A DNA stretch of 64,000 bases from Gammaproteobacteria bacterium (lineage in GTDB: Bacteria; Pseudomonadota; Gammaproteobacteria; Eutrophobiales; Eutrophobiaceae), in the NCBI GenBank assembly GCA_947480335.1, contig CANKCB010000004.1, forward strand, positions 124,001 to 188,000. The letters run 5' to 3'. The notes under the pieces are model-generated. The model was not told the DNA's origin and searched no databases. It was given only the letters and a program-made list of their open reading frames with translations. Shown here in pieces: positions 1,810-58,750 of the stretch. A program made the translations under genes and the position numbers. Within the stretch, counting starts at the first letter, position 1; every line of letters starts with the position of its first letter.

Positions 1810-1832
1810 GGATCAAAAAAATGGGGGGGTCT

Positions 1833-3785
1833 ATGTATATTTCTGAATCCATTCGTATCACATCGTCTTCAGTTGTTGATACACATCACGCGACTGTATT
1901 TTCTATTAGCAGGGCACTTTTTCTGCTGGTGGCGATTTGCCTGGCATCACAGTTGGTCGGCGCACAGACCAATATTCCAGCAGAACTAATCGACTATCCT
2001 GATTTTGTTTTTTATAACGGTCAGGTACTCACTGGTGACAAGGACAAGGATTTCACCATTGCGCAAGCTGTGGCCGTACGTGGCAACCGTATCCTCACAG
2101 TAGGGACCAGCGAGCAACTGCAAAAATATATCGGACCAAAAACCCGGGCTATCGATCTGAAAGGTCGTTCATTGACAGCCGGGTTCATTTATAACGACGG
2201 CGATAACTCTGTACCGGCAGGCGACATATTAAAAGACAGTCAATGGGGAGGACTGACCCGTCCCCATGTCGGCGGAAAAACGCTCGATGAAGCGCTGGCA
2301 ACCCTTGCCAAGATAGTTGAAACCGAAGGCAAACCGGGCGAACCCATATACATTAATCTGCAGGACACCTGGTCCGGCACCGCGATGAATGTGTGGGACA
2401 TTGATACACTCAACGAGGTTGCTCCGAATAATCCGGTAATTGTATTTCTGGAAAGTAGCGAAGGTGTGATGAACCAGGCCATGATCGATCTGGCGATCAA
2501 GGAAGGCTTCCCACCCAATCATCTGCACATGGGCAAGGACAAGAACGGCAAGTATAACGGTCGCGCCGGCGCACAACTGGTCGGATTCATCGGTCGTGAA
2601 GTCAGGCCCTGGCCAGATCCAATCTGGTTTGACGAAGTAGGTATTCCAGCCGCTGTTAAATCACTGGCCAACTATGCGAAACATGGCGTCACAGTGGCCA
2701 CCGGGCATATGAGTGCTCCAACGATGACCATATTGAACCGTATGTTCCATGAAGATCCAAAGACTCTTGCCGTACGTGTATACCCTGGACTGGATTTCCT
2801 GCGCCAGAATCCGAACGGAGAAATGTACCTGAAACGCATGGGTAATCTGGTCGACTTCACTCTGGAAGATGAACGTGGCGCGATGGTCACCATAGTCGGA
2901 GCCTCAGTGGGACCGCATGCAGGTACGCCGGACGGGCTGTCAGGACTATTGTCCATCCATCCGAAAAAAGTCATGATTCCTGGCCTCGCTCCTAACCCCA
3001 ATGGTGATAACCGCTGGACCGGTGAATGGATGAATGGTCTGAGCCAGGATGAACTCACGCCGGAACAGATGAAACAGACAGATTTCTACAACGTTATGCT
3101 GGCTCGTCAGCATGGCTGGAATGTGACCGGTATCCATAATATGGGCAGTCAGGGTATACGTCTGGCCATGCAGAACATCATTGCCGCGGAAAATCAGCCC
3201 AAGCTCTACGTGAAGAAACTTTGGCGGCCGCAAGGCTTTGATCACAATATCCAGTGGGAACCGGAAATTTTTACTTATTATGACACCGAGCCAGTGCTGC
3301 AGGACGTGGTGCGTTTTGGCATTAGTCTGCGGACGATGGTTGCCCAACGTGACTCTGAACCTCTTGGTATCAAAAACCTGATCGAAGCGCAGTATGGTAT
3401 GGAAGGTCTGGAAAAAATGGTTCCGCTGCGCACATTGCTACAGAAAGGAATTAAATTCCATATTGAAGGTACCGAACCACACGATAAGGAGATGTACCCG
3501 ACGTGGTACATGCAGAAAGCAGAAAACAGAGTCGATCGTAACGGTCGGGTCATTGCTGCAAATGAAGCACTGGATCGTGAATCCGCATTCCTGGCGCTGA
3601 CCCGCTGGGCAGCACGTTTTATCGGCTCTGAAAAAGACATGGGCTCCATTCAACCCGGAATGCTGGCCGACCTGGTTGTGTTTGATGGAGATATTATGGC
3701 CGCACCGGTTGAAAAGCTGGCCGATATCAGAGCAGTCTTAACCCTGGTGGGTGGACAAGTGGCCTATGAATCTCCCGAACTGTAA
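1833..3785 (+). CDS. Exported amidohydrolase-3-like protein, tandem copy 1 (HxH motif lost)
   Basis: A 650-residue protein with an N-terminal hydrophobic export segment (about 25-44, ending VGA-QT). The amidohydrolase composite fold follows: the N-terminal beta-sandwich (DFVFYNGQVLTG), the strand before the barrel (IDLKGRSLTAGF), and the C-terminal GSIQPGMLADLVVFDGD signature. Where active family members have a Thr-His-x-His metal motif, this one reads IYNDGDN (residues 119-125). The late barrel region keeps His in GIHNMGS but has HIEGT where the usual Asp sits. It may be a divergent enzyme with altered metal binding or a non-enzymatic binder. ATG at 1833 is chosen over 1821 because seven G residues (1823-1829) form the ribosome site. 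First gene of a four-gene operon. Confidence 0.85.
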   Translation: MYISESIRITSSSVVDTHHATVFSISRALFLLVAICLASQLVGAQTNIPAELIDYPDFVFYNGQVLTGDKDKDFTIAQAVAVRGNRILTVGTSEQLQKYIGPKTRAIDLKGRSLTAGFIYNDGDNSVPAGDILKDSQWGGLTRPHVGGKTLDEALATLAKIVETEGKPGEPIYINLQDTWSGTAMNVWDIDTLNEVAPNNPVIVFLESSEGVMNQAMIDLAIKEGFPPNHLHMGKDKNGKYNGRAGAQLVGFIGREVRPWPDPIWFDEVGIPAAVKSLANYAKHGVTVATGHMSAPTMTILNRMFHEDPKTLAVRVYPGLDFLRQNPNGEMYLKRMGNLVDFTLEDERGAMVTIVGASVGPHAGTPDGLSGLLSIHPKKVMIPGLAPNPNGDNRWTGEWMNGLSQDELTPEQMKQTDFYNVMLARQHGWNVTGIHNMGSQGIRLAMQNIIAAENQPKLYVKKLWRPQGFDHNIQWEPEIFTYYDTEPVLQDVVRFGISLRTMVAQRDSEPLGIKNLIEAQYGMEGLEKMVPLRTLLQKGIKFHIEGTEPHDKEMYPTWYMQKAENRVDRNGRVIAANEALDRESAFLALTRWAARFIGSEKDMGSIQPGMLADLVVFDGDIMAAPVEKLADIRAVLTLVGGQVAYESPEL

Positions 3786-3824
3786 TAATGCCTTTTAACT
3801 GATTTTAATAATCATGGGGATAGT

Positions 3825-5726
3825 ATGAATATATTTACTAAACGAACTCCAGCTCTGGTCAGCGGTATCGTGCTGGTGGCACAACTTTTAGCCACATCGG
3901 CCAGTGCACAAACTACCGCTGTACCGGCAGAACTGATCCATTACCCGGACTTTATTTTCTACAACGGCCAGGTACTGACCGGTGACAAGGACGTCGATTT
4001 CACGATTACCGAGGCAGTTGCCGTACGCGGCAACCAGATTTTCATGACCGGTACCAGTGAACAACTAAAGAAACTGGCAGGCCCGAAAACGCGCAGCATT
4101 GATCTGAAAGGACGTTCAGTCACTCCGGGATTTATCTACAACGATGGCGATAATTCCGTACCCGCTGGTGACATCCTCAAAAACAGCCAGTGGGACGAAC
4201 GTATCCAACCCCAGGTTGGCGGCAAAACCATTGATGAAATCCTCGCCACCATGTCAAGTATCGTTGAAACCCAGGGCAAACCCGGTCAGCCGATGTTCTT
4301 TGACTTGCAGGACCAGTGGGCCACTGCGGCAATGGAAGGCTGGAATGCCGACACATTGAATGAGATTGCGCCGAATAACCCGATCATAGTTTATCTGGAC
4401 AGCAGTTATGGCATCCTCAATTCCTCCATGGTCGATCTGGCCATCAAGGAAGGGTTCCCACCGGAACATTTCCACCTGCAACGTGATGCGAATGGTAAGC
4501 CCACCGGTGTTGCCGGTGCCCAGCTGGTTGGTTTTGTTGGACGTGAGGTTCGTCCATGGCCTGAACCGGCATGGTTCGATGAGGTGGCGATACCGGATGC
4601 TGTTACCTCTCTGAAAAAATATGCGAAACACGGTGTAACAGTCGCTACCGGTCACATGAGCTCGTTGACCATGACGGTATTAAACCGACTGTTTCATGAA
4701 CAGCCGCGTGATCTGGCTGTGCGTGTGTATCCGGGTCTGGATTTCCTGCGTCAGAATCCGAACGGCGAAATGTATCTGAAGCGCATGGGTAATCTGGTTG
4801 ATTTTTCGCTGATTGATTCCCGTGGCGCCATGGTGACTATTATTGGTGCTTCCGTGGGACCGCATTCAGGCTCGGAAGATGCCGGTGCTGGTCTGCTCAC
4901 GATAGAACCGAAAAAGAATATTATCAGCAAGATTGGCACCAATACGAATGGTTATAACCGCTGGACTGGTCAATGGTTTACCGGATTGAGTCAGGGCGAT
5001 TTGTCGCCTGAACAACAGAAGCAGACTGATTATTACAATGTCATGCTCGCCCGTCAGCATGGCTGGAACATGACCGGTATCCACAATCGTGGTAGCGAAG
5101 GTATCCGTCTGGCGATGCAGAATGTACTGGAAGCAGAACACCAACCAAAACTGTATGTGAAAAAATTATGGCGCCCGGATGGATTTGATCACAATATCGA
5201 CTGGTTACCGGAAATCTATACGTACTACAACGCGCATCCGGAGCTAAAGGAAATCATCCGTTTTGGTGTCAGTCTGGCCACCATGGTTGGTCAGCGTGAT
5301 TCTCTTGGCGTCAAAAATGTAATTGAAGCACAGTATGGTATGGAAGGTGTTAATCGGCTGGCCCCGCTGGGCACGTTGTTAAAGCAAGGAATACCATTCC
5401 ATATTGAAGGTTCCGCACCGCGTGATGATCGCGACTACCCGACCTGGTATATGCAACGAGCCATCTCCCGTGTAGACAAGGATGGACGAGTAATCTCTCC
5501 CGAGGATGCGCTGGATCGTAAATCGGCAATGCTGGCATTGACGCGTTGGCCCGCCCGATTCATGGGCTCGGACAAGGAACTGGGTTCACTGCAACCTGGC
5601 ATGCTCGCCGATCTGGTTGTATTTGATGGAAACCTGCTGGATGTACCAGTTGAAAAAATGGATCAGATCAAGCCGTTGATGACACTGGTTGGCGGTCAGG
5701 TTGCATTTGAAGCCCCGGGCTTGTAA
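3825..5726 (+). CDS. Exported amidohydrolase-3-like protein, tandem copy 2 (HxH motif lost)
   Basis: A 633-residue paralogue of the preceding gene, beginning 39 bases after it. A clear signal peptide (about 1-28, ending SASA-QT) precedes the amidohydrolase domain. The metal-motif position reads IYNDGDN (residues 105-110). Blocks shared with its neighbours include YPDFIFYNGQVLTGDKD, HGVTVATGHMS, MYLKRMGNLVDF and ARQHGWNMTGIHNRGSEG. It ends with the PGMLADLVVFDG signature typical of amidohydrolase-3 (YtcJ-like) proteins. Expected in the periplasm or outer membrane. The conservation of the odd NDGD motif in all three copies argues for retained function rather than decay. The substrate is unknown. 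Confidence 0.85.
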   Translation: MNIFTKRTPALVSGIVLVAQLLATSASAQTTAVPAELIHYPDFIFYNGQVLTGDKDVDFTITEAVAVRGNQIFMTGTSEQLKKLAGPKTRSIDLKGRSVTPGFIYNDGDNSVPAGDILKNSQWDERIQPQVGGKTIDEILATMSSIVETQGKPGQPMFFDLQDQWATAAMEGWNADTLNEIAPNNPIIVYLDSSYGILNSSMVDLAIKEGFPPEHFHLQRDANGKPTGVAGAQLVGFVGREVRPWPEPAWFDEVAIPDAVTSLKKYAKHGVTVATGHMSSLTMTVLNRLFHEQPRDLAVRVYPGLDFLRQNPNGEMYLKRMGNLVDFSLIDSRGAMVTIIGASVGPHSGSEDAGAGLLTIEPKKNIISKIGTNTNGYNRWTGQWFTGLSQGDLSPEQQKQTDYYNVMLARQHGWNMTGIHNRGSEGIRLAMQNVLEAEHQPKLYVKKLWRPDGFDHNIDWLPEIYTYYNAHPELKEIIRFGVSLATMVGQRDSLGVKNVIEAQYGMEGVNRLAPLGTLLKQGIPFHIEGSAPRDDRDYPTWYMQRAISRVDKDGRVISPEDALDRKSAMLALTRWPARFMGSDKELGSLQPGMLADLVVFDGNLLDVPVEKMDQIKPLMTLVGGQVAFEAPGL

Positions 5727-5820
5727 GCCCGGGATTACCCGGTTTGAATCTATGTGAAGGTATGGCTGGGAGATTCTGGAAGATAAAGTAATCTGATAAC
5801 TTATTTCGGGGGGAATAATT

Positions 5821-7758
5821 ATGCCGTACCAATCTATGAAAGAAAACACGAATGGCTCGCCCGCAAGGCGGGCCATACTTTTCTCAGGGATCCTGCTGAT
5901 CGTCCTAATGTTTAGCACAGCAGTCAGGTCCCAGACTGATGCTATTCCTCCCGAACTGATTCATTACCCGGACTTTGTTTTCTACAACGGACAGGTACTG
6001 ACTGCCGACAGCGATAATGATGATTTCACTGTTGCGGAGGGAGTCGCGGTACGCGGCAACCGTATTTTCTCGGTTGGCACCAGCGAACAAATACGCCTCC
6101 TCGCCGGTCCGGGCACACGGGTCATTGATCTGAAGGGCCGCACACTGACACCGGGCTTTATCTACAATGACGGCGACGGTTCCGTTCCTGCCGGCGATAT
6201 ACTCAAGGAAAGCCAGTGGGATGGAGTGACCCAACCGTCCATCGGTGGTAAGACACTGGATCAGGCGCTCGCAACCATGGCATCGATCGTAGAAGCGCAT
6301 GGGAAACCCGGCGAACCGATTTTTTTGCGATTGCACGATTCATGGGCGGCCACAGCAATGGAAACCTGGGATGCCAATACACTGGACGAAATCGCACCGA
6401 ACAATCCCATCATTGTTTATCTCGACAGCAGTTACAGTATGTCGAATACAGCTATGCTGAATCTGGCAGTTGAAAAAGGACTTCCCGCCAATCACTTTCA
6501 TCTCGACAGGGACAAGGATGGCAAATTCACCGGCCGTGGCGGTGCACACGTAAATGGATTTGTCGGTCGTGAGATACGGCCCTGGCCAGATCCGATCTGG
6601 TTTGAAGAAGTGGCCATGCCCGCCGCAGTGAAATCGTTGACCAACTATGCCCGTAATGGTGTAACTGTGGCCACAGGCCACATGAGCGCACCAACGATGA
6701 CGGTACTCAATAAACTATTCCACGAAAACCCGCAGGGACTTCCGGTACGCGTATACCCCGGACTGGATTTTCTGCGCCAGAATCCCAACGGCGAAATGTA
6801 TCTGAAACGCATGGGTAACCTGGTGGATTTTTCGCTCGTCGATGAACGCGGCAAAATGGTTACCATAGTTGGTGCGTCTGTAGGGCCGCATTCCGGTTCC
6901 GAGGATGCCGGTGCCAGCATGATGACGATAAGCCCGAAAAAACATGTAATCCCGGGTATCAGTCCGAATACGAACGGCTACAGTCGTTGGACAGGAGAGT
7001 GGTTCACTGGCCTCAGCCAAGGTGAGCTTACGGAGGAGCAGAAGCGACAAACGGACTATTACAATGTGATACTGGCTCGCCAGCATGGATGGAATGTGAC
7101 CGGCATCCATAATCGCGGCAGCGAAGGTATACGCCTGGCGATGCAGAACATAGCTGAGGCTGAACACCAGGAAAAATTGTATGTGAAAAAGCTTTGGAGG
7201 CCGCATGGCTTTGATCACAATGTCGACTGGGAGCCAGGCGTGTTTGAGTACTACAATGCTCACCCGGAACTCAAGGATCTGATTCGCTTCGGTGTAAGTC
7301 TCAGTACAGTTATCACGCAGAGGGATAACCAGGCCCTGGGAATTTCGAATGTTACCGAAGCACAATACGGTATGGAAGGTCTTGAAAGGCTGGCTCCGCT
7401 TGCTACGCTACTGAAAATGGGCATACCCTTTCACATTGAAGGTACCAATCCGGGCGATGATGATAGTTATCCGACCTGGTACATTCAGAAGGCCGTAACC
7501 CGCATTGACGAGGATGGTCGCGTGATTTCCGCTAAAGACGCATTGACGCGCCAGCAAGCCTTTCTTGCGCTGACCCGCTGGGCAGCGCGTTTCATTGGTT
7601 CGGAAAATGAGATGGGGGTTGTCAAACCTGGATATTATGCTGATCTGGTCGTATTTGATGGCAACCTGATAGACGTGCCTATTGAAAAACTCGCCGAACT
7701 GAAACCGGTTATGACTCTGGTTGGCGGCAAGGTCGCATACGAATCACCAGAACTTTAA
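5821..7758 (+). CDS. Exported amidohydrolase-3-like protein, tandem copy 3 (HxH motif lost)
   Basis: A 645-residue third copy, starting at an ATG with six G residues (5808-5813) seven bases upstream. It has an export segment at about 18-36 and ends with PGYYADLVVFDGN. The metal-motif position reads IYNDGDG (residues 115-120), and the usual late Asp is replaced in FHIEGTNPGDDD. The copy is roughly as divergent from the first two as they are from each other, so the duplications are not recent. Followed after 70 bases by the small DGDxDY membrane protein, probably in the same transcript. Confidence 0.85.
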   Translation: MPYQSMKENTNGSPARRAILFSGILLIVLMFSTAVRSQTDAIPPELIHYPDFVFYNGQVLTADSDNDDFTVAEGVAVRGNRIFSVGTSEQIRLLAGPGTRVIDLKGRTLTPGFIYNDGDGSVPAGDILKESQWDGVTQPSIGGKTLDQALATMASIVEAHGKPGEPIFLRLHDSWAATAMETWDANTLDEIAPNNPIIVYLDSSYSMSNTAMLNLAVEKGLPANHFHLDRDKDGKFTGRGGAHVNGFVGREIRPWPDPIWFEEVAMPAAVKSLTNYARNGVTVATGHMSAPTMTVLNKLFHENPQGLPVRVYPGLDFLRQNPNGEMYLKRMGNLVDFSLVDERGKMVTIVGASVGPHSGSEDAGASMMTISPKKHVIPGISPNTNGYSRWTGEWFTGLSQGELTEEQKRQTDYYNVILARQHGWNVTGIHNRGSEGIRLAMQNIAEAEHQEKLYVKKLWRPHGFDHNVDWEPGVFEYYNAHPELKDLIRFGVSLSTVITQRDNQALGISNVTEAQYGMEGLERLAPLATLLKMGIPFHIEGTNPGDDDSYPTWYIQKAVTRIDEDGRVISAKDALTRQQAFLALTRWAARFIGSENEMGVVKPGYYADLVVFDGNLIDVPIEKLAELKPVMTLVGGKVAYESPEL

Positions 7759-7828: not shown

Positions 7829-8296
7829 ATGATGAATATCCGTTGTAAACTGGTAACTACCGGATTGCTGGCAACTGGTCTATATGCGGGCATGATATTC
7901 ACGAATATTGCCTGGAGTTATGATGGCGACATCGACTATCTGGCACCTTATGTCACACTGGATCAAGAATCGGGTAAGCTGGTCACAGTCGACCCAAGAA
8001 AGGATGCCGCAGCGGCAGCTAAACTGGAGCAAGAACATAATGCTTCCAATCCGAATGCAACTGCCAGTATCGCTACATCAACTACTGCTACCACAGCTGC
8101 GACAAATGATACTGGCACTGCGTCTACGGCAAACACCCTTTCAGCACCGGCACCAGCAAGCAGCGAACAATCTTCATCACCTGCTGCATCATCAAGAGCG
8201 ACCGTGATCGCCATCGGCACACTCGTAATTATTGGGCTTATCGTTGTAATAACTCGCCGGAAAGCTGATTCAGCAATAGATAAATCCGGTAGTTAA
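7829..8296 (+). CDS. Small DGDxDY membrane-anchored protein of unknown family, copy 1
   Basis: A 155-residue protein that I do not recognise. Layout: an export segment (about 8-30), then a motif right at the likely mature N-terminus (YDGDIDYLAPYVTLD, continuing GKLVTVDP), then a long low-complexity Ala/Thr/Ser linker (about 60-120), then one C-terminal membrane helix (about 125-142) followed by RRK. This predicts a periplasm-facing N-terminus tethered to the inner membrane. The motif recurs in the protein at 56702-57094, which is also next to an amidohydrolase. It may dock or present the amidohydrolases; that is inference. A ribosome site AAGAGG lies at 7816-7821. Confidence 0.75.
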   Translation: MMNIRCKLVTTGLLATGLYAGMIFTNIAWSYDGDIDYLAPYVTLDQESGKLVTVDPRKDAAAAAKLEQEHNASNPNATASIATSTTATTAATNDTGTASTANTLSAPAPASSEQSSSPAASSRATVIAIGTLVIIGLIVVITRRKADSAIDKSGS

Positions 8297-12636: not shown

Positions 12637-14316
12637 ATGACGACGCAAGACAAAGAACCGGATCGGACCTTTCGACCAGTCACACAAGGTAAACAGAAGA
12701 GTTTGCATGAGCATGGTCATCATCACGACCATACTCATGATCATGAACACGATCATGATGATCATATCGAAAGCGCGGACTTTGAAGGCGATATTGAAGA
12801 TCATCCCTTATGGCAACGTGACAATGTCATACTGCAAAGTGTCGGCATAGACATCGGTTCCTCCGGCACGCAAATACTATTTTCCCATTTACATCTGCAA
12901 CGCCAGGCCGTTGATTTGTCCAGCCGTTATCTGGTCGTCAAACGCGAAACCTGGTACGAATCTCCTGTGAGTCTGACACCATACAAGGGCGAAACCCTAA
13001 TCGATGACCGTGCCCTGGGAGAGATTGTGGATAACGCCTACAATACTGCACGCATCCATCCGGATGAAATCGATACCGGTGTGGTTATACTCACAGGTGA
13101 AGCGCTGCGTCGTGAAAACTCCGAACGTATTGCCCGGATCCTGTCAGAAAAATGTGGGCAACTGGTCTGCGTGGCAGCAGGACATCATATAGAAGCCATG
13201 CTGGCTGCTCATGGCTCTGGCGCGGCACAGGCATCCTACGACCGCAATGAATGTGTGCTGAACATTGATATCGGTGGTGGCACGACCAAACTCAGCCTGA
13301 TTCAAAAAGGCAAGGTGTTATCAACCGCTGCAATACATATTGGCGGTCGTCTGATCGCAATGGATAACCAGAATAAAATAATCCGTATTGAACCGTCAGG
13401 ACAGGATCATGCCCGGCGAGCAGGCTACAACTGGAAACTTGGCGATCAGGTAACAGGGGCACAACTTGATACTGTTACCGAGTCGATGGCAGAGGATTTG
13501 ATTCATGCGTTGATCGATAGGCCACCTGTGGCTGAAGTATCCGCTCTGTATCTGACGGACCCGCTTGCGGACATCAGTCAAATTAACAGCATGTTATTTT
13601 CGGGCGGCGTGGCAGAGTATGTCTATGACCATGAACAACGTGATTTTGGTGATCTGGGCAAACGTCTGGGGGCAGCGGTACGTAAACGAATAGAAGCAGG
13701 CGCGCTACCCTGGACCTTGTTAAAAGAAAGCCAGGGTATACGTTCGACCGCGCTGGGTGCCTCGGAATATACGGCACAATTAAGTGGTAACACCTGTTAT
13801 ATCAGCAATTCCGAGTCACTCTTGCCCAAACGAAACTTGCAGGTTCTTCATACCGAATTCGATTTTACAGATACATACAATGCGGTGAATCTGGGGGACG
13901 CGATTTCAAAGCAGATGACGCGCTTTAACCTGACCGGATCGAGTGAAGACCTAGTGTTGTCCTTGCACTGGCAGGGTTTGCCTGACTACAGCCGAATCAA
14001 GGCACTGGCCGACGGTATCCTGCATGGAATTGCTGAACGTATAGCTCGCGGCAAGGCCATCTATGTGATTCTGGATGCAGATATCGCCTTGACACTCGGT
14101 GCGGTCATGCATGAAGAATGTAATATCGAAAACGATATTATGGTCATAGACGGCATCGCTCTGTGGGATTTTGATTATATTGATCTGGGCAAGCTACGCA
14201 TGCCTTCTGCCACGGTACCTGTGACCATTAAATCTCTCGTCTTCAATGATATTTCCGAAGGGCCGATGAAACACGAACGCATACATCGACGCCCACAAGC
14301 ACCAGCCAACACATAA
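12637..14316 (+). CDS. EutA-like reactivase with His-rich N-terminus
   Basis: A 559-residue actin/Hsp70-fold protein of the EutA family (ethanolamine ammonia-lyase reactivating factor; known members exchange damaged adenosylcobalamin in EutBC using ATP). Visible motifs: phosphate-1 VGIDIGSSGTQ (residues 69-79), phosphate-2 NIDIGGGTTK, and the adenosine motif FSGGVAEYVYD. Residues 24-43 hold eleven histidines alternating with Asp, Glu, Gly and Thr, a likely metal-chelating tail absent from the second copy at 58751. No eutB or eutC gene is in the window, so its client is unknown; it could serve another cobalamin enzyme elsewhere. Followed after 24 bases by two methyltransferase-like genes. Confidence 0.85.
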   Translation: MTTQDKEPDRTFRPVTQGKQKSLHEHGHHHDHTHDHEHDHDDHIESADFEGDIEDHPLWQRDNVILQSVGIDIGSSGTQILFSHLHLQRQAVDLSSRYLVVKRETWYESPVSLTPYKGETLIDDRALGEIVDNAYNTARIHPDEIDTGVVILTGEALRRENSERIARILSEKCGQLVCVAAGHHIEAMLAAHGSGAAQASYDRNECVLNIDIGGGTTKLSLIQKGKVLSTAAIHIGGRLIAMDNQNKIIRIEPSGQDHARRAGYNWKLGDQVTGAQLDTVTESMAEDLIHALIDRPPVAEVSALYLTDPLADISQINSMLFSGGVAEYVYDHEQRDFGDLGKRLGAAVRKRIEAGALPWTLLKESQGIRSTALGASEYTAQLSGNTCYISNSESLLPKRNLQVLHTEFDFTDTYNAVNLGDAISKQMTRFNLTGSSEDLVLSLHWQGLPDYSRIKALADGILHGIAERIARGKAIYVILDADIALTLGAVMHEECNIENDIMVIDGIALWDFDYIDLGKLRMPSATVPVTIKSLVFNDISEGPMKHERIHRRPQAPANT

Positions 14317-48349: not shown

Positions 48350-49321
48350 TTATAAAAGAAACAATCCAAACAAGGCAATCACTGCAGGAATAAGCAACAA
48401 CCAACTGATAGTAATATGTTGCTCTGCGCCGAATTGCATTCCTTCCGGAATATCCACGAGCGTTGCTTCCCTGAGATAATTTATTAAGTCGCCGGTCTGA
48501 CTTTCGTTGAAATACTGCCCCTGACTCCCGGTTGCCACCACTTGTAAAATATCGCTACGCAAGGGTATACGAACAGTCTTGTCATCCATGACTGACAACG
48601 TGTCCTGACACACATCATCCTGATTCGTTACCGGTACTGGCGTCTCTATCGCATTACCAATACCAACAACCTGTATGGTTATTCCGGCCGCCGTCAAATC
48701 TCTCAAAGGTTGCTCCAGATGTTGACGCCAGTCTTCATCCTCGAGATTACCATCACTGAGCAAAATGACATGATTAACATTCCTGTACAATTCCGGCAGG
48801 GTCTGTTTTTTAATTGCGATCACCCTGAGTGCATTTAGCATATCGGTATTGGTAGCCCGATAGGTCATGCCCACAAACAGTCCGTTATTCATCACAGACC
48901 GAAGATAGGAACGACTGAATGTCAGCTGGGTTATCGGAAAGGTGAGACGATCAAATGCAACAATCCCGAATCTGGCCTCGGGAATTCCCTCCATTATGTC
49001 CTGCATCACATGCTTGGCCCGATCCAGAAAGGTCGGTTCTGCACAGGAGTTGCGCGCCTGCATACTGCGTGAGGTATCAACCAGAAACAGATAGTCAGCC
49101 GTCTGTTGTGGCTCCCGATAGGGTCCGGCACCTGCAAGAATCAAAGACACGACAAACAAGCCTGCGCAGAGGTAACGCAGACGAAAATACATTAAGGTGG
49201 GTGGGGTACTCCTGAACTGATAAACCACCGAACGTGTAAATAATTCGCTACGCCTGAACGCCCAGAGTAATGGCAGTATCACAACCAGCAGCAACAGCAC
49301 CCACGGGTAATCAAAGCCCAT
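48350..49321 (-). CDS. vWA-domain membrane protein (BatB/MxaL-like)
   Basis: A 323-residue protein with two N-terminal membrane segments (about 5-22 and 48-66), a von Willebrand A domain with the MIDAS motif DTSRSM (about 86-91) and VILLSDGN, and a C-terminal membrane helix (LLLIPAVIALFGLFLL). Such proteins sit in the inner membrane facing the periplasm and act with MoxR ATPases. It overlaps the upstream vWA gene by 11 bases and ends a five-gene operon whose order (MoxR, DUF58, three-TM protein, vWA, vWA) resembles mxaRSACL, required for methanol dehydrogenase maturation in methylotrophs. The exact target here is unknown. Confidence 0.85.
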   Translation of the reverse strand: MGFDYPWVLLLLVVILPLLWAFRRSELFTRSVVYQFRSTPPTLMYFRLRYLCAGLFVVSLILAGAGPYREPQQTADYLFLVDTSRSMQARNSCAEPTFLDRAKHVMQDIMEGIPEARFGIVAFDRLTFPITQLTFSRSYLRSVMNNGLFVGMTYRATNTDMLNALRVIAIKKQTLPELYRNVNHVILLSDGNLEDEDWRQHLEQPLRDLTAAGITIQVVGIGNAIETPVPVTNQDDVCQDTLSVMDDKTVRIPLRSDILQVVATGSQGQYFNESQTGDLINYLREATLVDIPEGMQFGAEQHITISWLLLIPAVIALFGLFLL

Positions 49322-50369
49322 GACCAGCCTCTTGCCTGATGCTGATTGTTTGATGGAAAATCATTTCATTCAGTGTGAGCAAAACTACAGCTAACAGCGC
49401 CAGCACTACTGAAAATACTCCACGTAAATCGGTTTCAAACAATCTGGTCTCATTATCAAATACCGGAGAAGCCTCAATTTCACTGACCAGACGGTAAGCC
49501 TGTTCCATTTCCTGTTCTGAACCGGCCTTGAATATCCTGAATCCCGGATCGCCAGCAAACTCCTGGGTTATCTTGCGCAGTATTTCATCAGGTATCGCCA
49601 CGCCCAGTGTGTACAAACGGATTCCCGCCTTGCGCAAACTACGAACACCTCTACCCAGATTTTCAAGATCATCTTCCGCATCAGAAATCAGGATAATCGC
49701 ACCATCCTGTTCCGGAAATGCATCGCGTGCCATTAACAAGGCCTTGTCTATATTGGTAAGCGAAGAAAAGGCTTCCAGCTGGGTACCTGCCCCCCGGCGT
49801 ATACTTTCGAGTACTTCTGCAAACTTGTTGTCGGTCTCGGTAGTTGGCCAACGCGCAAAAAAAGGTTCAGTACTGAAAAGGATTAGTCCAAAACGCTCAT
49901 CCTTGAACCTGTCCATAAAATCAAATAACGCACTACGTGCCATTTCATAACGGGTAATTCCACCGGCCCCTTCTTTCAAATCATCTCCCCCAAATCCCTT
50001 GGTATTGGCCGGCAGATTCATTGACGGAGACATATCAAAGGCAACAACAAAATTCTTGTGATACACACGTGTATTTTCGGAAAACAAGGGTTCAGAGGAG
50101 CGATACACCGGACCGGCCAGGGTTATACCCAGACCTGTAACCAGAAGGATTCGGCTGCCTATGAGAAAATATTTTCTGGATCGGGTATCAACACGATTAA
50201 TGGAGTGTAGATACTCCAGACCGGTTATATCCAGCGCACCCTGCTTGCGGTTCACATAAAATTTCCAGATCAGCAAAAGCAGTAATGGAATTACCAATAC
50301 CAGTAACCCGGGTGTGGAAAAACTGACGGATTCTGCAATCGTGGTTTGCACTGTTCCGCTACCCGTCAA
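49311..50369 (-). CDS. vWA-domain membrane protein (BatA/MxaC-like)
   Basis: A 352-residue protein: two N-terminal membrane helices (about 19-37 and 65-85), then a vWA domain with MIDAS DMSPSM and ILISDAEDD, and a last helix (VFSVVLALLAVVLLTL). The start TTG at 50369 overlaps the upstream TGA by three bases (TTGA), a coupled start. Same operon and proposed role as its neighbour: a divalent-ion-dependent partner of MoxR. GTG at 50351 is an alternative start. Confidence 0.83.
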   Translation of the reverse strand: MTGSGTVQTTIAESVSFSTPGLLVLVIPLLLLLIWKFYVNRKQGALDITGLEYLHSINRVDTRSRKYFLIGSRILLVTGLGITLAGPVYRSSEPLFSENTRVYHKNFVVAFDMSPSMNLPANTKGFGGDDLKEGAGGITRYEMARSALFDFMDRFKDERFGLILFSTEPFFARWPTTETDNKFAEVLESIRRGAGTQLEAFSSLTNIDKALLMARDAFPEQDGAIILISDAEDDLENLGRGVRSLRKAGIRLYTLGVAIPDEILRKITQEFAGDPGFRIFKAGSEQEMEQAYRLVSEIEASPVFDNETRLFETDLRGVFSVVLALLAVVLLTLNEMIFHQTISIRQEAGHGL

Positions 50370-52096
50370 AATCGTTCAAAAATTATATAACTGCTGTTGT
50401 CCTTGGCTGAATCAGCATCTTCATATTCTTCCGGCAGTTTTGCTTCAATGATATTGATCAACCCCTGATCGGACGCAATTTCCTTCTCATCGCCTGTGGT
50501 AGTTTTCATCTTGAACATATCGCGCAACTGAACCAGTCGAGTCAATACAGCATTGCGCCAACGGGTAGTCAGCTCAAGGTTTCTGAGCACGTCGTCATCA
50601 CTATCATCAATCCGTGCGGCGGCCTGTAAATCCAGTTGCGCCTGCTGTAATTTTTCAGCAGCATTCACCAGTAAGGCAATCACATCTTCTTCCGATGCAG
50701 ACAACTTTGTTAAAATCAGGGTTTGTAACAAATCGTCTGGCGTTTCGGCCTGGAACACCAACTCCAGTATCTTTAATTGAGACTCCGGGATGTGTACACC
50801 AAAACTGTGCGCTGCGCGGGCGGTACCACTATTGTAATAGGCCGCTAGCTGTATTTTTTTAATCTTTACTGAACTGGCAAACGACTGCAAACCCAGTAAT
50901 ACCTCTTCCGTTATATCTGTCGCCGTCAGGACTGATTGCACGGCACTGTTATAGCGTTTGATTTCTGAAGATAACCACCATTGTGGTGTGGCAGCCAATA
51001 CCAACATAAGTGCCGACAGTAGACTGACCACGATGAGTGATTGGGCAACACGTGGCTGCTGTCTGATGCGCACACTCAGGGTAGGTTGCAGTTCCAGCAA
51101 CAATCTATGCTGTTCAACAAGCAATGTCAGTCTGTCAGACAACAGGTTTTTCATCTGCGACACTTCTGTTTGAGTGAGTTCGCCAGATTGATATACACGT
51201 CGCAAGATTTGCCGGGAAGTCTCTACAAAAGATGACCACTCAGGTTCTTCTGTCTGTGCACCCGACCAGAAACTGTCCGGATCCATATCAACCTGGATAT
51301 GTAGAAGACGAGTGACTATTTTCTCGCATCCAAGCAGATAGGATCGAGGACCGGCAGCCGATTCATTTAATTGCCTGAGCTGAAACCAGAGTTGCTCTGG
51401 CACTGACAGCTCATGCTGTGTTCTTCTGCGACCGAAGTGCCAGAGGATAAACAGTGCAAGCAGCAACAATATTGTACCGCCCAGCAACATTATGGTCTGA
51501 CGCAGGGTATCTCTGGCATAGATCGCGGGTTTGATATCGCGTAAGGAAATAGAACCAGCATTCCAGGGATACAAGGAACCAATATGAATAGCCGGTCTGG
51601 GTATTCTGACTGTATGCAGATTGGAACCGGGTTGCCCAATATTGGTATAGGGCAACATGGCCGGATCCATTTTATAGGTGTCGGGTCGTTTGACTCCGAC
51701 TATATGCAATTGATAGATAATCCTGTATTCGGTTATACCAATACCTGCTGACGAGCTGTTTTCAGTCACACCAATCTGATCAAAAGGTAGAAATCCCAGA
51801 TTGCGCTTGAACGCGTCCAGATCGGGTTTAATTTTATCGTTTCTATAAAGCACCCGGACCAAACAGCTGGCATGTTCCCCCAGCAGGTAACTGTCCTTGT
51901 CAAACTCTATCCAGCCTGCGATATCTTCGTTATCAGCTAGACCAGCTGGTGACATGCTTGAAAAACGAAATATAGAATTGCTGGTTCCGGCGAGAGAAAT
52001 CAGCAATATTGATGCGCATAACAGAATGATCGGTACGGCAACTGCCGCAGCAAGTTGTAACGGATATTTATCAAGCAGATTGCGGAGCCTGTTCAT
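50366..52096 (-). CDS. Three-TM protein of the MoxR/vWA operon (MxaA-like)
   Basis: A 576-residue protein with membrane helices at about 15-35, 201-222 and 350-373, a periplasmic beta-rich part (about 40-195) and a helical cytoplasmic part with RRRTQHELSVPEQLWFQLRQL. The C-terminal half is helical (about 380-540). Topology and place between DUF58 and vWA genes match MxaA/BatD-type proteins, but no diagnostic motif is visible, so assignment rests mainly on context. ATG 52096 overlaps the DUF58 stop by four bases. Likely couples the MoxR ATPase to the membrane partners. Confidence 0.6.
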   Translation of the reverse strand: MNRLRNLLDKYPLQLAAAVAVPIILLCASILLISLAGTSNSIFRFSSMSPAGLADNEDIAGWIEFDKDSYLLGEHASCLVRVLYRNDKIKPDLDAFKRNLGFLPFDQIGVTENSSSAGIGITEYRIIYQLHIVGVKRPDTYKMDPAMLPYTNIGQPGSNLHTVRIPRPAIHIGSLYPWNAGSISLRDIKPAIYARDTLRQTIMLLGGTILLLLALFILWHFGRRRTQHELSVPEQLWFQLRQLNESAAGPRSYLLGCEKIVTRLLHIQVDMDPDSFWSGAQTEEPEWSSFVETSRQILRRVYQSGELTQTEVSQMKNLLSDRLTLLVEQHRLLLELQPTLSVRIRQQPRVAQSLIVVSLLSALMLVLAATPQWWLSSEIKRYNSAVQSVLTATDITEEVLLGLQSFASSVKIKKIQLAAYYNSGTARAAHSFGVHIPESQLKILELVFQAETPDDLLQTLILTKLSASEEDVIALLVNAAEKLQQAQLDLQAAARIDDSDDDVLRNLELTTRWRNAVLTRLVQLRDMFKMKTTTGDEKEIASDQGLINIIEAKLPEEYEDADSAKDNSSYIIFERF

Positions 52097-52995
52097 GCGG
52101 CATATCGCCCTTTGCGCTTGCGAAAATATCGATCTATTTCCCTGCTCGATTGCTCTACATTGGCTGTATCCAGCGGCAGCGGAATAATACCGCGCGAACC
52201 CAGCTGGTTAAGCAATTCGCTGAAACGAGCTTCATGAACTTTTCGGATGTCACGCGCAATTTTTGGAGAGATCCATATTTCTTCACGTGCACCGGTTTCC
52301 GGATTTGAAAAAGGAATAAATGTACTGGCTGATAATTCAGGGAAACTGTATTCAAGCGCATCCTGAATAATCACCGGAACAAAGTCATACCGCTGGACCG
52401 ACCTCCATAACTTCGATAGATCTGCCAGGCAGCCGTCACCTTCGAGAAAATCCGAGCAATAAAGCAACATCGCATTCGGTGGTAAACAACTGTTCAACGG
52501 AACACGGGTTCCTTTCAGTCTGCCATCAGTGTTTCCGGTATAAAAATGCCATAACGCACGATACAAGTGATAAAAATGTCGTGAACCAATACCCAGACCA
52601 AAACTGCGTATACCATTATCGGTTCGAATACCAAAACCAAAGGTAGTTTCTGCCTGCCAGGCTGAATACAACAGCAGAGCAACAGCACAAACCTGTGCTT
52701 CCATTTTTTCACGTACCCGCATTGAGGCAGAACCATCCACCACCACCATAATCTTGAAATCACGCAGGGCCACACGTTCAACTATCGTTGCTACGCCTCG
52801 TCTGGCGGTTGCTGTCAGATTGATACGACGCGGATCATCTCCGAGCTGAAAGTCACGATAACCCATAGGCTCGTAACCCTTGCCGGAAAATGGACTGGTC
52901 CATTCACCGGGTAACATACTGATTACTTTTTTACCCGGAATAAATGTTACAGGTCTGCGCTGAATCTGCAGCAGTAGCTGCTTGCTGTCCAACAC
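52093..52995 (-). CDS. DUF58 protein (MxaS-like)
   Basis: A 300-residue soluble protein of the DUF58 family. The hallmark block GYRDFQLGDDPRRINLTATARR is followed by a vWA-like strand VVVDGSASM. DUF58 proteins are usual partners of MoxR ATPases. The start GTG 52995 shares its first G with the last base of the MoxR TAG stop; AAGG lies about eight bases upstream. Tight overlaps with both neighbours suggest a stoichiometric complex. Confidence 0.9.
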   Translation of the reverse strand: MLDSKQLLLQIQRRPVTFIPGKKVISMLPGEWTSPFSGKGYEPMGYRDFQLGDDPRRINLTATARRGVATIVERVALRDFKIMVVVDGSASMRVREKMEAQVCAVALLLYSAWQAETTFGFGIRTDNGIRSFGLGIGSRHFYHLYRALWHFYTGNTDGRLKGTRVPLNSCLPPNAMLLYCSDFLEGDGCLADLSKLWRSVQRYDFVPVIIQDALEYSFPELSASTFIPFSNPETGAREEIWISPKIARDIRKVHEARFSELLNQLGSRGIIPLPLDTANVEQSSREIDRYFRKRKGRYAA

Positions 52996-54014
52996 TAGAG
53001 AACCTTGCTGATTATTTCATCTATGATTTCATGCAGACGGATTTCAGTTTCTTCCAGTTCGACTTCGCCCGGTTTGAATACCAGACGGTGTCTGAGGATA
53101 GGCAGGACAACAGCCGTCAGGTCGTCCGGCCTGACAAATTCATTTCCCTGCAACACAGCATGTACGCGTGCAGCGGAAATCATGCTCAATCCGGCGCGTG
53201 GTGAAGCGCCACCACCTCGCTGCACCAGTTGTTTGACAATGTTGATTTCCGAGCGTTCAGGACGGGTCTGGTTCAGTATCTGCTGCACCTTGTTAACGAT
53301 GGAAGGTTCAATGTGTACACCGGTACGTATGGCCTTGCGGGCAGCCAGGATTTGTTGTTCGTTTATCACCGGCGTTATTTCCGGCATGCCACCGGTCACG
53401 CCGTAACGCGTCATGATCAATTCCTCGTGTTCTGGCGAGGGATACCCCAGTGGCACCATCATCAGAAAACGGTCTTTTTCTGCCCTGCCCAGACCAAAAG
53501 TACCTTCTTCCTCCACCGGGTTCTGGGTAGCGATAACCATAAACAGTTCTTTCAGTTTGTAGGTACCACCCAGCTCGGTCGTCACCTGACCTTCTTCCAT
53601 CGGTTCCAGCACAGAGCCTTTCGAGCTGGTACGCGCGCGGTTTAGCTCATCCGTTAACAGGAAATTGGTATGCAGGGGTCCCTTGACTACCAGTTCCAGT
53701 TTTTTGGTGGCGAAATCAAAATGTTCAATACCGATAATATCCTTGGGCAACAGGTCGGCTGCAAATGAAATCCGGCGAAACTCAACATGGGCGGCTTCAG
53801 CAAGAGTCTTGAAGAACAGTGTCTTGGCGAGTCCCGGCACCCCTTCAAGCAAAACATGTCCGCCAGCAAACAGACATACCAGCGTCTGTTCCATTTCTGC
53901 TTCCATGCCTACAATACGTTTGCGTACCTCATTCTCCAGCGCCATGATGCTGTCGTGCACCTGCTTCAGTCCGGGCAAATTATCTGCTGGCAACTTGTCA
54001 GTCGAAATCGGCAT
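52995..54014 (-). CDS. MoxR-family AAA+ ATPase
   Basis: A 339-residue ATPase with Walker A GVPGLAKT (58-65), Walker B FLLTDELNR, sensor region ATQNPVEEEGTFGLGRAEKDR, and a C-terminal lid with PRAGLSMISAARV. MoxR proteins remodel or insert metals into client proteins with DUF58 and vWA partners. The start ATG at 54014 is preferred over 54023, because AGGAG lies nine bases upstream of it but directly abuts the earlier ATG. First gene of the operon. It differs from the MoxR fragment at 1-408. Confidence 0.92.
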   Translation of the reverse strand: MPISTDKLPADNLPGLKQVHDSIMALENEVRKRIVGMEAEMEQTLVCLFAGGHVLLEGVPGLAKTLFFKTLAEAAHVEFRRISFAADLLPKDIIGIEHFDFATKKLELVVKGPLHTNFLLTDELNRARTSSKGSVLEPMEEGQVTTELGGTYKLKELFMVIATQNPVEEEGTFGLGRAEKDRFLMMVPLGYPSPEHEELIMTRYGVTGGMPEITPVINEQQILAARKAIRTGVHIEPSIVNKVQQILNQTRPERSEINIVKQLVQRGGGASPRAGLSMISAARVHAVLQGNEFVRPDDLTAVVLPILRHRLVFKPGEVELEETEIRLHEIIDEIISKVL

Positions 54015-54406
54015 TACATTCATCTCCTAAAAATAAATATTTTTATGCAATCATACTCACTGGTTTCGACTGCAGCCTGTTTGAAAACGTGAATACGACT
54101 GATGCTACAAACAATTCATGCATGGGGTAATGACAGTTTTGATATTTCCGGCAGGGGGAATCAGGATTACATAACGAGTGAGACTCACCAGACCATTCTG
54201 CCCTTGTCTATACTGCTACAGTTCAGGACTTCATCCCACCTGAGAGTCCACTCTGTGCTGACAGACACTCATTACGACGAGTACTTCGATTTCCCAAACT
54301 GTTCAAATACTGACCGGCACTGTGTTCATCTGAAATCAAAACGACCACAGTGCCGGCATATTTTCCAAACTACCCGATTAAAATAACCGGAAGTTCTGAC
54401 TACCTT
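54015..54406. other. Intergenic region with hairpin
   Basis: About 390 bases between the amidohydrolase stop and the MoxR start. No credible gene; the open frame at 54102-54386 on the plus strand lacks a ribosome site and known motifs. It holds the hairpin at 54314-54356 and presumably the promoter of the MoxR operon. Confidence 0.4.
54314..54356 (-). terminator. Hairpin after amidohydrolase 4
   Basis: Perfect 11-bp stem CCGGCACTGTG/CACAGTGCCGG (54314-54324 with 54346-54356) with a 21-base loop, 50 bases past the amidohydrolase stop. The loop is long and the T run is missing, so it is only a candidate. Confidence 0.4.
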
Positions 54407-56617
54407 TTACTTACCAGCCCCCTTGCTGACAGCCGGCTTGTATTCCGGATCCTGATACATAATCTTGTCACCAACCACCGTCATGATGGCCTTGTTGTCC
54501 AGAATCTCATCCTTCGGCACGGTAAAATAATCTTTGTTTAGTACCGTGTAGTCAGCGAGTTTGCCTGGCTCCAGACTACCGGCCACGTCTTCTGCAAACA
54601 GCCATTCAGCGGCGCGACTGGTATACAAACGCAGTGCAGTGGCACGACTGACAGCTTCAGCTGGCATGACAATTTCACCCTTGTCTTTTGGCATGCTTTC
54701 ATGACGTACACGTCTGTTTACAAACATGTCGAGTGCATTAAAGTAGATATCCGGGCGTGGAGAGCTGTACTCGGTTTCGCCAACAACATTCACACCCGCT
54801 TCCAGCAAGGTCTTGGTCGGGGCCAGGAATTCCAGGCCTTCCGGACCATAGCGTTTCACCTGCGTCAACGAGGCCGATACGTCATTAGGCTGAATCGGTA
54901 CATACAAGTTGTAACGCTTCATCAGTTCAACCACTTCCGGCACCTTACCGATGGCACCACCGTGTGCAAAACCGATTCTGAGCGCACGAATATCATCCAT
55001 CGTCATGCGACCCTTGACACGGGCTTCTTCAATCCAGGCCACATGCTTTCTGAACGCCTCGCTACCGAATGAATGCAAACTGAACGGGCGCCAGCCTGTC
55101 ATTAATGCCGGTAACAACACCTTCTTGATGCGATAAGCATCCGCATCCCAACACAGCTCACGGTTTTTCAGCATTTCCGGTCCGGGCAAATCATTACCGA
55201 AACAGGCTACCTGACGTGAGTCGCCAACACCGCCGTCTGTGATACCCATAGGCCAGAACCATTCATTGGTCTTGATTGAACCATGATGAGCACCCATTTC
55301 AACAACGGTCAACGAGTTGTTCGGATACATTACGGGACTTCTGAACATTTCAAAACCATAACCCCAACGTACTGGTAATCTATTGTCCCTACGTAACAGG
55401 TTATAGACAGCGGTCATAGCGTCACCAAACTCGACACTGGAGGCAATCATGGTCACGCCGGCAGAGTTATACATATTCAATGCGGCTTCCATCAAATCCA
55501 TGGTCAACTGTTTGGGCATTCTTGGCGGATTGATGACTCGTTCCCACGCACCACTTTCCTGGAACACACCACCGACGATACCCCTGTCACCTTCATGACC
55601 GAGTTTGCTCAGGCCTGTCATGTCGTTGGCAGCAATGGTAAAGCTGGGCCATAATTCCAGAGTCTTGTCCAGACCCTTGCGGTTTAACAGGATATTTCTG
55701 TGACTGCAGTGCTGCATATGGTGCGGATATTCTTCAGAAAATCCACAACCCTGAGCAAGGTGGGCATGATAGGAATCTTTCCTGTCTTTGGTCGCATTGT
55801 CCCTGAACAGTTGCTCGAACGGATTATCATTTTCTGCCAGTGTACTGTTGTCATTGGTCAGATCCTTCAAAGCCTGAGGTACACTCAGCGGCTCCATCTT
55901 GGCCTTACCATCTGGTGCAATACGCACACGCACTACCAGGCCAACCTGAGTAATTGCACTGGGTGTACTACCGCTGCTCAAGGTAGCAGGATTGTTCGGA
56001 ATAACCTTACTGAACTCCGGCAGGGTCAGAAAATCGTTATAAATACCATTGGTAAGCGCACCTATATCCGGATAGTTGGTGTTCTCGTTTTCAACCAGAC
56101 GGATATGTACCCATTCGCCCGGTTCTGGTGGATATTTCTTGATAAACTCGGCAATAGCCGCATAGGTATCGGCAGCATTATTACTGGGTAGTAATATCGC
56201 TGTATGGATACCGGCAGGTAATGAATACTGATCCCGTTCAGCCTCAAACAGACGCACAGCATTCATCGTGCTTTCCGGGTGCACATGAGTTTCGATAATA
56301 CCCGGTATCACTGTCTTGCCCTGTACATCTATGATACGGGTCTGTGGCCCGGCAAAGCGCATCATGTCTTTCTGACTACCTAGCGCAAAGATCTTGCCAC
56401 CGCGGATGGCCATCGCTTCAACAATACTGCCCGGATTGTCCGAAAGTATGGATTTGTTATCCATCGTGACTATCTTGCCATTGACTACAATGGTGTCCGG
56501 ATAGCTGACCAACTCACTGGGAACGGTTGCCGTATTCTGAGCATTTGCCCCGGTAACTGCGAGCACAGCCAGCACGGCAGACACGATCATGGCTGGAAAT
56601 TTTCTGTATCTGTTCAT
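54407..56617 (-). CDS. Exported amidohydrolase-3 family protein, copy 4 (HxH intact)
   Basis: A 736-residue amidohydrolase with signal peptide (about 1-26, GANA-QN). Unlike the three tandem paralogues it keeps the metal motif THVHPES (H111, H113), as well as PFSLHSFG and GFAHGGAIG, and ends SLEPGKLADYTVLNKD. It should therefore be a metal-dependent hydrolase acting in the periplasm; substrate unknown. Its N-terminus (SELVSYPDTIVVNGKIVT) is clearly related to copies 1-3. The start at 56617 follows GGGGGTATTGTTTT. It is preceded by the small DGDxDY gene, probably one operon. Confidence 0.9.
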   Translation of the reverse strand: MNRYRKFPAMIVSAVLAVLAVTGANAQNTATVPSELVSYPDTIVVNGKIVTMDNKSILSDNPGSIVEAMAIRGGKIFALGSQKDMMRFAGPQTRIIDVQGKTVIPGIIETHVHPESTMNAVRLFEAERDQYSLPAGIHTAILLPSNNAADTYAAIAEFIKKYPPEPGEWVHIRLVENENTNYPDIGALTNGIYNDFLTLPEFSKVIPNNPATLSSGSTPSAITQVGLVVRVRIAPDGKAKMEPLSVPQALKDLTNDNSTLAENDNPFEQLFRDNATKDRKDSYHAHLAQGCGFSEEYPHHMQHCSHRNILLNRKGLDKTLELWPSFTIAANDMTGLSKLGHEGDRGIVGGVFQESGAWERVINPPRMPKQLTMDLMEAALNMYNSAGVTMIASSVEFGDAMTAVYNLLRRDNRLPVRWGYGFEMFRSPVMYPNNSLTVVEMGAHHGSIKTNEWFWPMGITDGGVGDSRQVACFGNDLPGPEMLKNRELCWDADAYRIKKVLLPALMTGWRPFSLHSFGSEAFRKHVAWIEEARVKGRMTMDDIRALRIGFAHGGAIGKVPEVVELMKRYNLYVPIQPNDVSASLTQVKRYGPEGLEFLAPTKTLLEAGVNVVGETEYSSPRPDIYFNALDMFVNRRVRHESMPKDKGEIVMPAEAVSRATALRLYTSRAAEWLFAEDVAGSLEPGKLADYTVLNKDYFTVPKDEILDNKAIMTVVGDKIMYQDPEYKPAVSKGAGK

Positions 56618-56701
56618 AAAACAATACCCCCTGGTTTTAACAATCAATCTAGACTACAAAAATAAAAAACTGCAAATTCTGGAACTGCCTCACCCCGGTT
56701 G

Positions 56702-57094
56702 TTACTGACTTTGCCGGAAACGGCGAACCATCACAGCACCAAACACAAGCAATCCTGTCACAATCACCGTGATCATTGGCATGGTACCAAGTGTTTGCTT
56801 TTCACCCTGCTCCGGGCTGACCACAGCCTGATTTTCATTTTTTGCAGACACTGACGTGCTGGCAGTAACAGCTACCGTATCCGGAGTGGTCGTCTCTGCG
56901 GGAGCGGACATGTCCATCGGATGCGATTTCAGTTTTGGACCAGGATTTTTTGTCACCAGCTGCCCGGTTTGCGGATCAACTGTGATATAGGGCGTCGAAT
57001 AGTCCACATCGCCATCACTGGCAAAGACTGGTCCTGATAACAACAATGCATTAATTGTTATTTGTAGAACGAATACGACTATGAATCTGCCCAA
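56702..57094 (-). CDS. Small DGDxDY membrane-anchored protein, copy 2
   Basis: A 130-residue protein of the same unnamed type as 7829-8296. A signal peptide (about 1-25, PVFA-SD) is followed at once by DGDVDYSTPYITVDPQTG and QLVT, then a polar Thr/Ser/Ala-rich linker, one membrane helix (about 104-121) and VRRFRQSQ. The TTG start at 57094 is set by AGGGGAG nine bases upstream; the longer frame has no better site. It sits directly upstream of amidohydrolase 4. Finding the same motif next to amidohydrolases in two places supports a functional link. Confidence 0.75.
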   Translation of the reverse strand: MGRFIVVFVLQITINALLLSGPVFASDGDVDYSTPYITVDPQTGQLVTKNPGPKLKSHPMDMSAPAETTTPDTVAVTASTSVSAKNENQAVVSPEQGEKQTLGTMPMITVIVTGLLVFGAVMVRRFRQSQ

Positions 57095-58718: not shown

Positions 58719-58750
58719 AATCCCTGGCTTAACCGGAACAGTATTTGACC

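Follow-up and report, generated by a model that had tools for sequence, protein, structure and literature searches.

Small membrane-tethered proteins paired with exported amidohydrolases in one uncultured gammaproteobacterial genus: candidate docking partners

In the window studied here (the whole stretch of 64,000 nucleotides that was analysed), a short gene follows a run of three unusual amidohydrolase genes, and a gene of the same kind stands beside a fourth. Is the small protein a dedicated partner of these enzymes, perhaps one that docks them at the inner membrane, as a sequence-only reading of the window had supposed, or do the two kinds of genes merely travel together? The small genes are the following:

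7829 to 8296, plus strand: DGD-family protein copy 1, with a signal peptide, an acidic head containing the predicted hairpin YDGDIDYLAPYVTLDQESGKLVTV, a linker, a C-terminal helix and an RRK tail
7919 to 7999, plus strand: mature head of copy 1 (approximate limits), from the acidic motif to the end of the predicted beta-hairpin, with strands at residues 41-44 and 51-54
56702 to 57094, minus strand: DGD-family protein copy 2, with a TTG start

The small genes and their family

The translation of copy 1 comprises 155 aa, in which a hydrophobic signal peptide is followed by the mature N-terminus YDGDIDYLAPYVT, a low-complexity linker, a single C-terminal hydrophobic stretch and the RRK tail, in agreement with the architecture (signal peptide, linker, single C-terminal helix and RR tail) described in the sequence-only reading. 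The recurrence of this architecture and motif beside the fourth amidohydrolase, also noted there, can be read in the 130-aa translation of copy 2, which carries SDGDVDYSTPYIT, a linker, a C-terminal helix and an RR tail; moreover, a search of the window's own genome with copy 1 (P0001) as the query recovered copy 2 (P0002) at E 5.9e-8, together with a third copy. The orthologue of copy 2 at locus L049 has an ATG start at the same position as the TTG of copy 2. Both small ORFs are real genes. Searches with copy 2 revealed further members, both in the window's genome and in four others from the same genus. The earlier idea of a pair conserved across two loci thus stands with regard to the pairing but not to the copy number, which is about 10 in the window's genome.

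A profile search defined a family of 37 members in five genomes of one uncultured gammaproteobacterial genus. In an alignment of 28 members, the signature consists of an Asp-led acidic triplet at the mature N-terminus, a Tyr and a DPxTG turn with a predicted beta-hairpin; this head is followed by a linker of 35-74 residues rich in Pro, Thr, Ser and Ala, a helix and a tail of 4 to 20 residues that is usually net positive. The DGDxDY motif, proposed earlier as the hallmark, is present in both copies but proved too narrow for the family, in which it marks a single subclass; other forms of the acidic motif include DEDM, DENM and DRDT. The AlphaFold model (single chain, 28-row alignment) places a fairly confident hairpin over YVTL and LVTV, which flank the turn, followed by a disordered linker and a C-terminal helix, with an overall pLDDT of 70 and values near 83-88 for the head hairpin.

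Conservation is uneven along the protein. The whole-gene dN/dS was 0.11-0.34 for orthologue pairs with unsaturated distances. Among the seven pairs for which both head values were estimable, head dN was 0-0.11 at a head dS of 0.37-1.8 in six and 0.14 in the seventh, and in four pairs of close orthologues the head was nearly frozen (dN 0-0.02 at dS 0.37-1.16). The signal peptide and linker drift, with linker identity falling to 24-40% in diverged pairs. A frozen head combined with a drifting linker is the pattern that a binding head on a passive tether would be expected to leave.

No relative over the head was found in Pfam, NCBIfam, PHROGs or the PDB, where the matches to the small proteins were chance-like and mostly confined to the low-complexity linker or the helix. 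One PDB profile match, 9t9v_L (E 0.024), was dropped, as it covers the linker and helix only. As far as sequence comparison goes, the small protein represents a previously unnamed family that belongs to none of the known families searched.

Pairing with exported amidohydrolases

The partner enzymes in the window are as follows:

1821 to 3785, plus strand: third amidohydrolase of the run before copy 1, YNDGD type
3825 to 5726, plus strand: second amidohydrolase of this run, YNDGD type
5821 to 7758, plus strand: exported amidohydrolase directly upstream of copy 1, with YNDGD replacing HxH
54407 to 56647, minus strand: exported amidohydrolase directly downstream of copy 2, with an intact ETHVHPEST motif

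These enzymes match Amidohydro_3 (PF07969) with 81-121 bits against a curated cut-off of 29.7, and they belong to it by fold as well, the nearest solved structures being 3icj and 3igh. The three enzymes before copy 1, flagged as odd at the outset, are indeed Amidohydro_3 matches in which the HxH after beta-strand 1 is replaced by YNDGD; 54407-56647 retains HxH, as do all other subfamilies of the enzyme tree. Judged by their sequences, the three are relatives, but they are probably no ordinary metalloenzymes. The YNDGD subfamily (1821-7758 and the orthologous runs) is large, exported and kept across five genomes, and since YNDGD stands in place of the HxH metal ligands, it may be either a pseudoenzyme or an enzyme with other chemistry.

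Each of the five genomes contains 17-46 matches to the amidohydrolase profile. Among 113 near full-length enzymes, 108 begin with a signal-peptide-like stretch, four show loose matches to a lipobox, and a C-terminal helix is missing from all. In terms of hydropathy and charge, the pairs resemble an anchor subunit and its enzyme: a small protein with a signal peptide, helix and basic tail next to an exported enzyme with no anchor of its own. A search for proteins in which head and enzyme are fused found none.

How regular is the pairing? In the five genomes, 35 of the 37 small genes directly adjoin an amidohydrolase (for one of these, at a contig edge, only the C-terminus of the enzyme remains). 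The other two are alike, representing a shorter variant that lacks the DPxTG turn and lies about 4.4-4.5 kb from an amidohydrolase, which is of the ESHTHPF type in one case and cut by the contig end in the other. No member among the 37 was found away from an amidohydrolase, and the pairing suggested by the window is strongly supported, extending far beyond its two loci. The zone within 350 bp of such an enzyme makes up only about 0.5-1% of each genome, which excludes independent random placement as the cause of adjacency. Because gene copies are not independent, and adjacency among recent paralogues partly reflects co-duplication, the case for pairing rests on rearrangements: the enzyme may lie upstream, downstream or divergently, and parsimony on the enzyme tree requires at least six changes of arrangement, through all of which adjacency was kept.

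An adjacent copy accompanies 34 of the 113 enzymes, spread across nearly all exported subfamilies at roughly one copy per subfamily per genome (YNDGD a and b, ETHVH, two DTHNH, DTHxHxW, LTHEH and LTHGH each have their own). The remaining 79 have no directly adjacent copy, and several of them share a locus with an enzyme that does. Head and enzyme distances are correlated over the 34 pairs (r = 0.75) and within the window's genome (r = 0.45, p = 0.012), and this correlation is weak or absent inside each of the remaining four (p 0.06 to 0.71). One head class (DGDVDY/DGDVVY) occurs beside two distant enzyme subfamilies, YNDGD and ETHVH, which are about 25% identical; consequently, the head may bind something common to these loci and not the enzyme itself.

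Split amidohydrolases were also observed, in which an N-half of about 250-285 aa (profile positions 8-220) and a C-half of about 470 aa (profile positions 215-615) are encoded separately, both halves beginning with a signal-peptide-like stretch of their own. They occur at G000:C4:98052-100332 (L119), G002:C1:1360093-1366652 (L154) and G003:C42:2656-9200 (L176), as well as at L146, L158, L165, L140 and L183; two genomes carry a single N-half with four C-halves in tandem. None of the split pairs was seen to have a small partner gene next to it. Near the amidohydrolase loci of the window, EutA-like proteins (Pfam EutA) are encoded at 12637-14316 (E 1.6e-112) and 58745-60268 (E 1.8e-120).

Proposed docking and its alternatives

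Since many of these enzymes, which look like soluble exported proteins, lie beside a membrane anchor whose conserved head is exposed, a docking subunit is the simplest reading. Each small protein probably serves as the membrane docking partner of the neighbouring enzyme, and we give about even chances to the broader proposal that the family comprises genus-specific, dedicated membrane-tethered accessory subunits for exported amidohydrolases. Such a protein would span the inner membrane, its N-terminus facing the periplasm and its basic tail the cytoplasm. The short head, made up of the acidic motif and the DPxTG beta-hairpin, would bind the amidohydrolase encoded alongside or else a partner that these enzymes have in common. 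With its 35-74 residues, the linker would keep the soluble enzyme close to the inner membrane, on what would be the path of substrate entering through TonB receptors.

The main rival to docking arises from the genes next to the amidohydrolase of copy 2:

52995 to 54023, minus strand: MoxR-type AAA+ ATPase, downstream of the copy 2 amidohydrolase (AAA_3, 1.2e-43)
52093 to 52995, minus strand: DUF58 protein with a DGSAS motif (profile and sequence)
50366 to 52096, minus strand: membrane protein in the BatD position, with no Pfam match
49311 to 50369, minus strand: BatA-like VWA membrane protein, MIDAS DMSPS
48350 to 49321, minus strand: BatB-like VWA membrane protein, MIDAS DTSRS

Thus, the genes for the small protein, amidohydrolase, MoxR, DUF58, BatD-like, BatA and BatB proteins follow one another on a single strand. 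MoxR/VWA maturation systems (Bat, NorQD, RavA/ViaA) are co-located with many of the small-protein loci: a MoxR gene is present within 10 kb of 15 of the 37 small genes, and of the 40 MoxR genes, 18 have these amidohydrolases no more than about 6 kb away. In the papers retrieved, no MoxR/VWA system is linked to amidohydrolases or to this small protein. The MoxR genes fall into two score levels, with most of the amidohydrolase-linked ones at the lower, about 150 bits, and the others at about 210 bits.

Under this rival, the small protein would be a maturation adaptor whose acidic head acts as the MIDAS ligand of a periplasmic VWA (Bat) protein and presents the amidohydrolase to the MoxR/VWA chaperone for metal insertion or activation. 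The proximity counts and the gene order at the copy 2 locus speak for it, as does the short variant, at least one of whose two loci has a VWA gene close by. By sequence, the BatA-like and BatB-like proteins keep DxSxS, and the VWA domain of the former looks periplasmic according to the positive-inside rule, applied by eye. An acidic periplasmic head would suit a MIDAS site, which takes an acidic residue from its target, as in the insertion of Fe by NorQD (PMC9976466). However, the LTHEH, LTHGH and several DTHNH loci have no MoxR nearby and still keep the small protein, metal insertion would be an odd need for YNDGD enzymes devoid of HxH, and in the controls MoxR is common outside the genus without the small protein. 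Because so many loci without MoxR keep the small protein, we regard an adaptor role as unlikely and clearly less probable than tethering.

Three further explanations carry less weight. The C-terminal helix and basic tail resemble sorting signals, and the signal peptide and low-complexity region are likewise shared with LPXTG, PEP-CTERM and GlyGly-CTERM proteins; the small protein might then be a surface protein of this kind, its pairing with the enzyme reflecting regulatory co-localisation only. A weak PDB match (E 0.024) is even named as an LPXTG anchor domain, but it is limited to the linker and helix. The small proteins differ from such proteins in having no sorting motif: PEP, GG or LPXTG before the helix is not conserved in the 28 aligned members, the tail varies in length, and no NCBIfam sorting model matches, which together leave this explanation improbable. 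Slightly less probable still is that the small protein serves the amidohydrolase as a substrate, pro-peptide or inhibitor, its head filling the active site and being cut or released; the idea is invited by an N-terminal peptide that is short, exposed and strongly conserved and that nearly always has a hydrolase next to it, but the head is also kept beside YNDGD enzymes lacking the HxH metal ligands, and we know of no Amidohydro_3 enzymes acting as proteases of structured hairpins. Finally, both families have expanded in the same genus, and the small gene could have been duplicated along with the amidohydrolases with no functional link. Such hitch-hiking is already disfavoured, and we consider it very improbable, given the maintenance of adjacency through the rearrangements, the strong purifying selection on the head and the presence of about one copy per enzyme subfamily.

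Docking by a membrane subunit would have parallels. Single-pass anchors of soluble periplasmic enzymes include the anchor helix of NorC and the anchor subunits of hydrogenases and formate dehydrogenases, and here too a single helix would keep a soluble catalytic unit of the periplasm bound to the inner membrane. In contrast to those subunits, to which they bear no sequence relation, the small proteins have a bare hairpin head and a disordered linker, and they form tens of paralogous pairs. To our knowledge, no Amidohydro_3 member has been described with a small membrane partner; the partner enzymes here are distinguished by being mostly 615-750 aa long, exported and massively paralogous in one genus, in some cases without HxH. 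If docking is true, it would give a cell a simple means of retaining many soluble enzymes of its periplasm at the inner membrane, and it would help to explain why MoxR/VWA operons sit beside amidohydrolases. A more elaborate version, which we regard as unlikely, is a plug-in system across the genus: each exported amidohydrolase subfamily would have its own inner-membrane socket protein bearing the conserved acidic DPxTG hairpin, and the soluble enzymes would be recruited singly to one shared complex in the membrane, perhaps that of MoxR/VWA.

Distribution

Another question is whether the family exists beyond the window's genome. Relatives are present, though only within the same genus: the 53 family, 369 class and 398 phylum genomes searched yielded no members outside it, which holds for the collections and sensitivity used, and a search of plasmids gave no match to the small protein. 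Neither of the two outcomes that the sequence-only reading had named as refuting the pairing, motif matches away from amidohydrolases or none outside this genome, was observed. The few weak matches outside the genus cover the linker and helix only or lack the motif. In the class sample, neither the amidohydrolase clan (profile E<=1e-100) nor the small protein occurs outside the genus. The small proteins thus form an undescribed family whose partner is clear, and the lineage that carries them is represented here by metagenome-assembled genomes (MAGs) alone.

A scan for the DGDxDY subclass in 84,980 species genomes (one per species) returned four MAGs only, all of this genus. The contigs of two of these MAGs (CAMBTO and CAMDWI; L105, L106 and L107) are titled Klebsiella pneumoniae; if the MAGs belong to this genus, these titles are evidently mislabelled.
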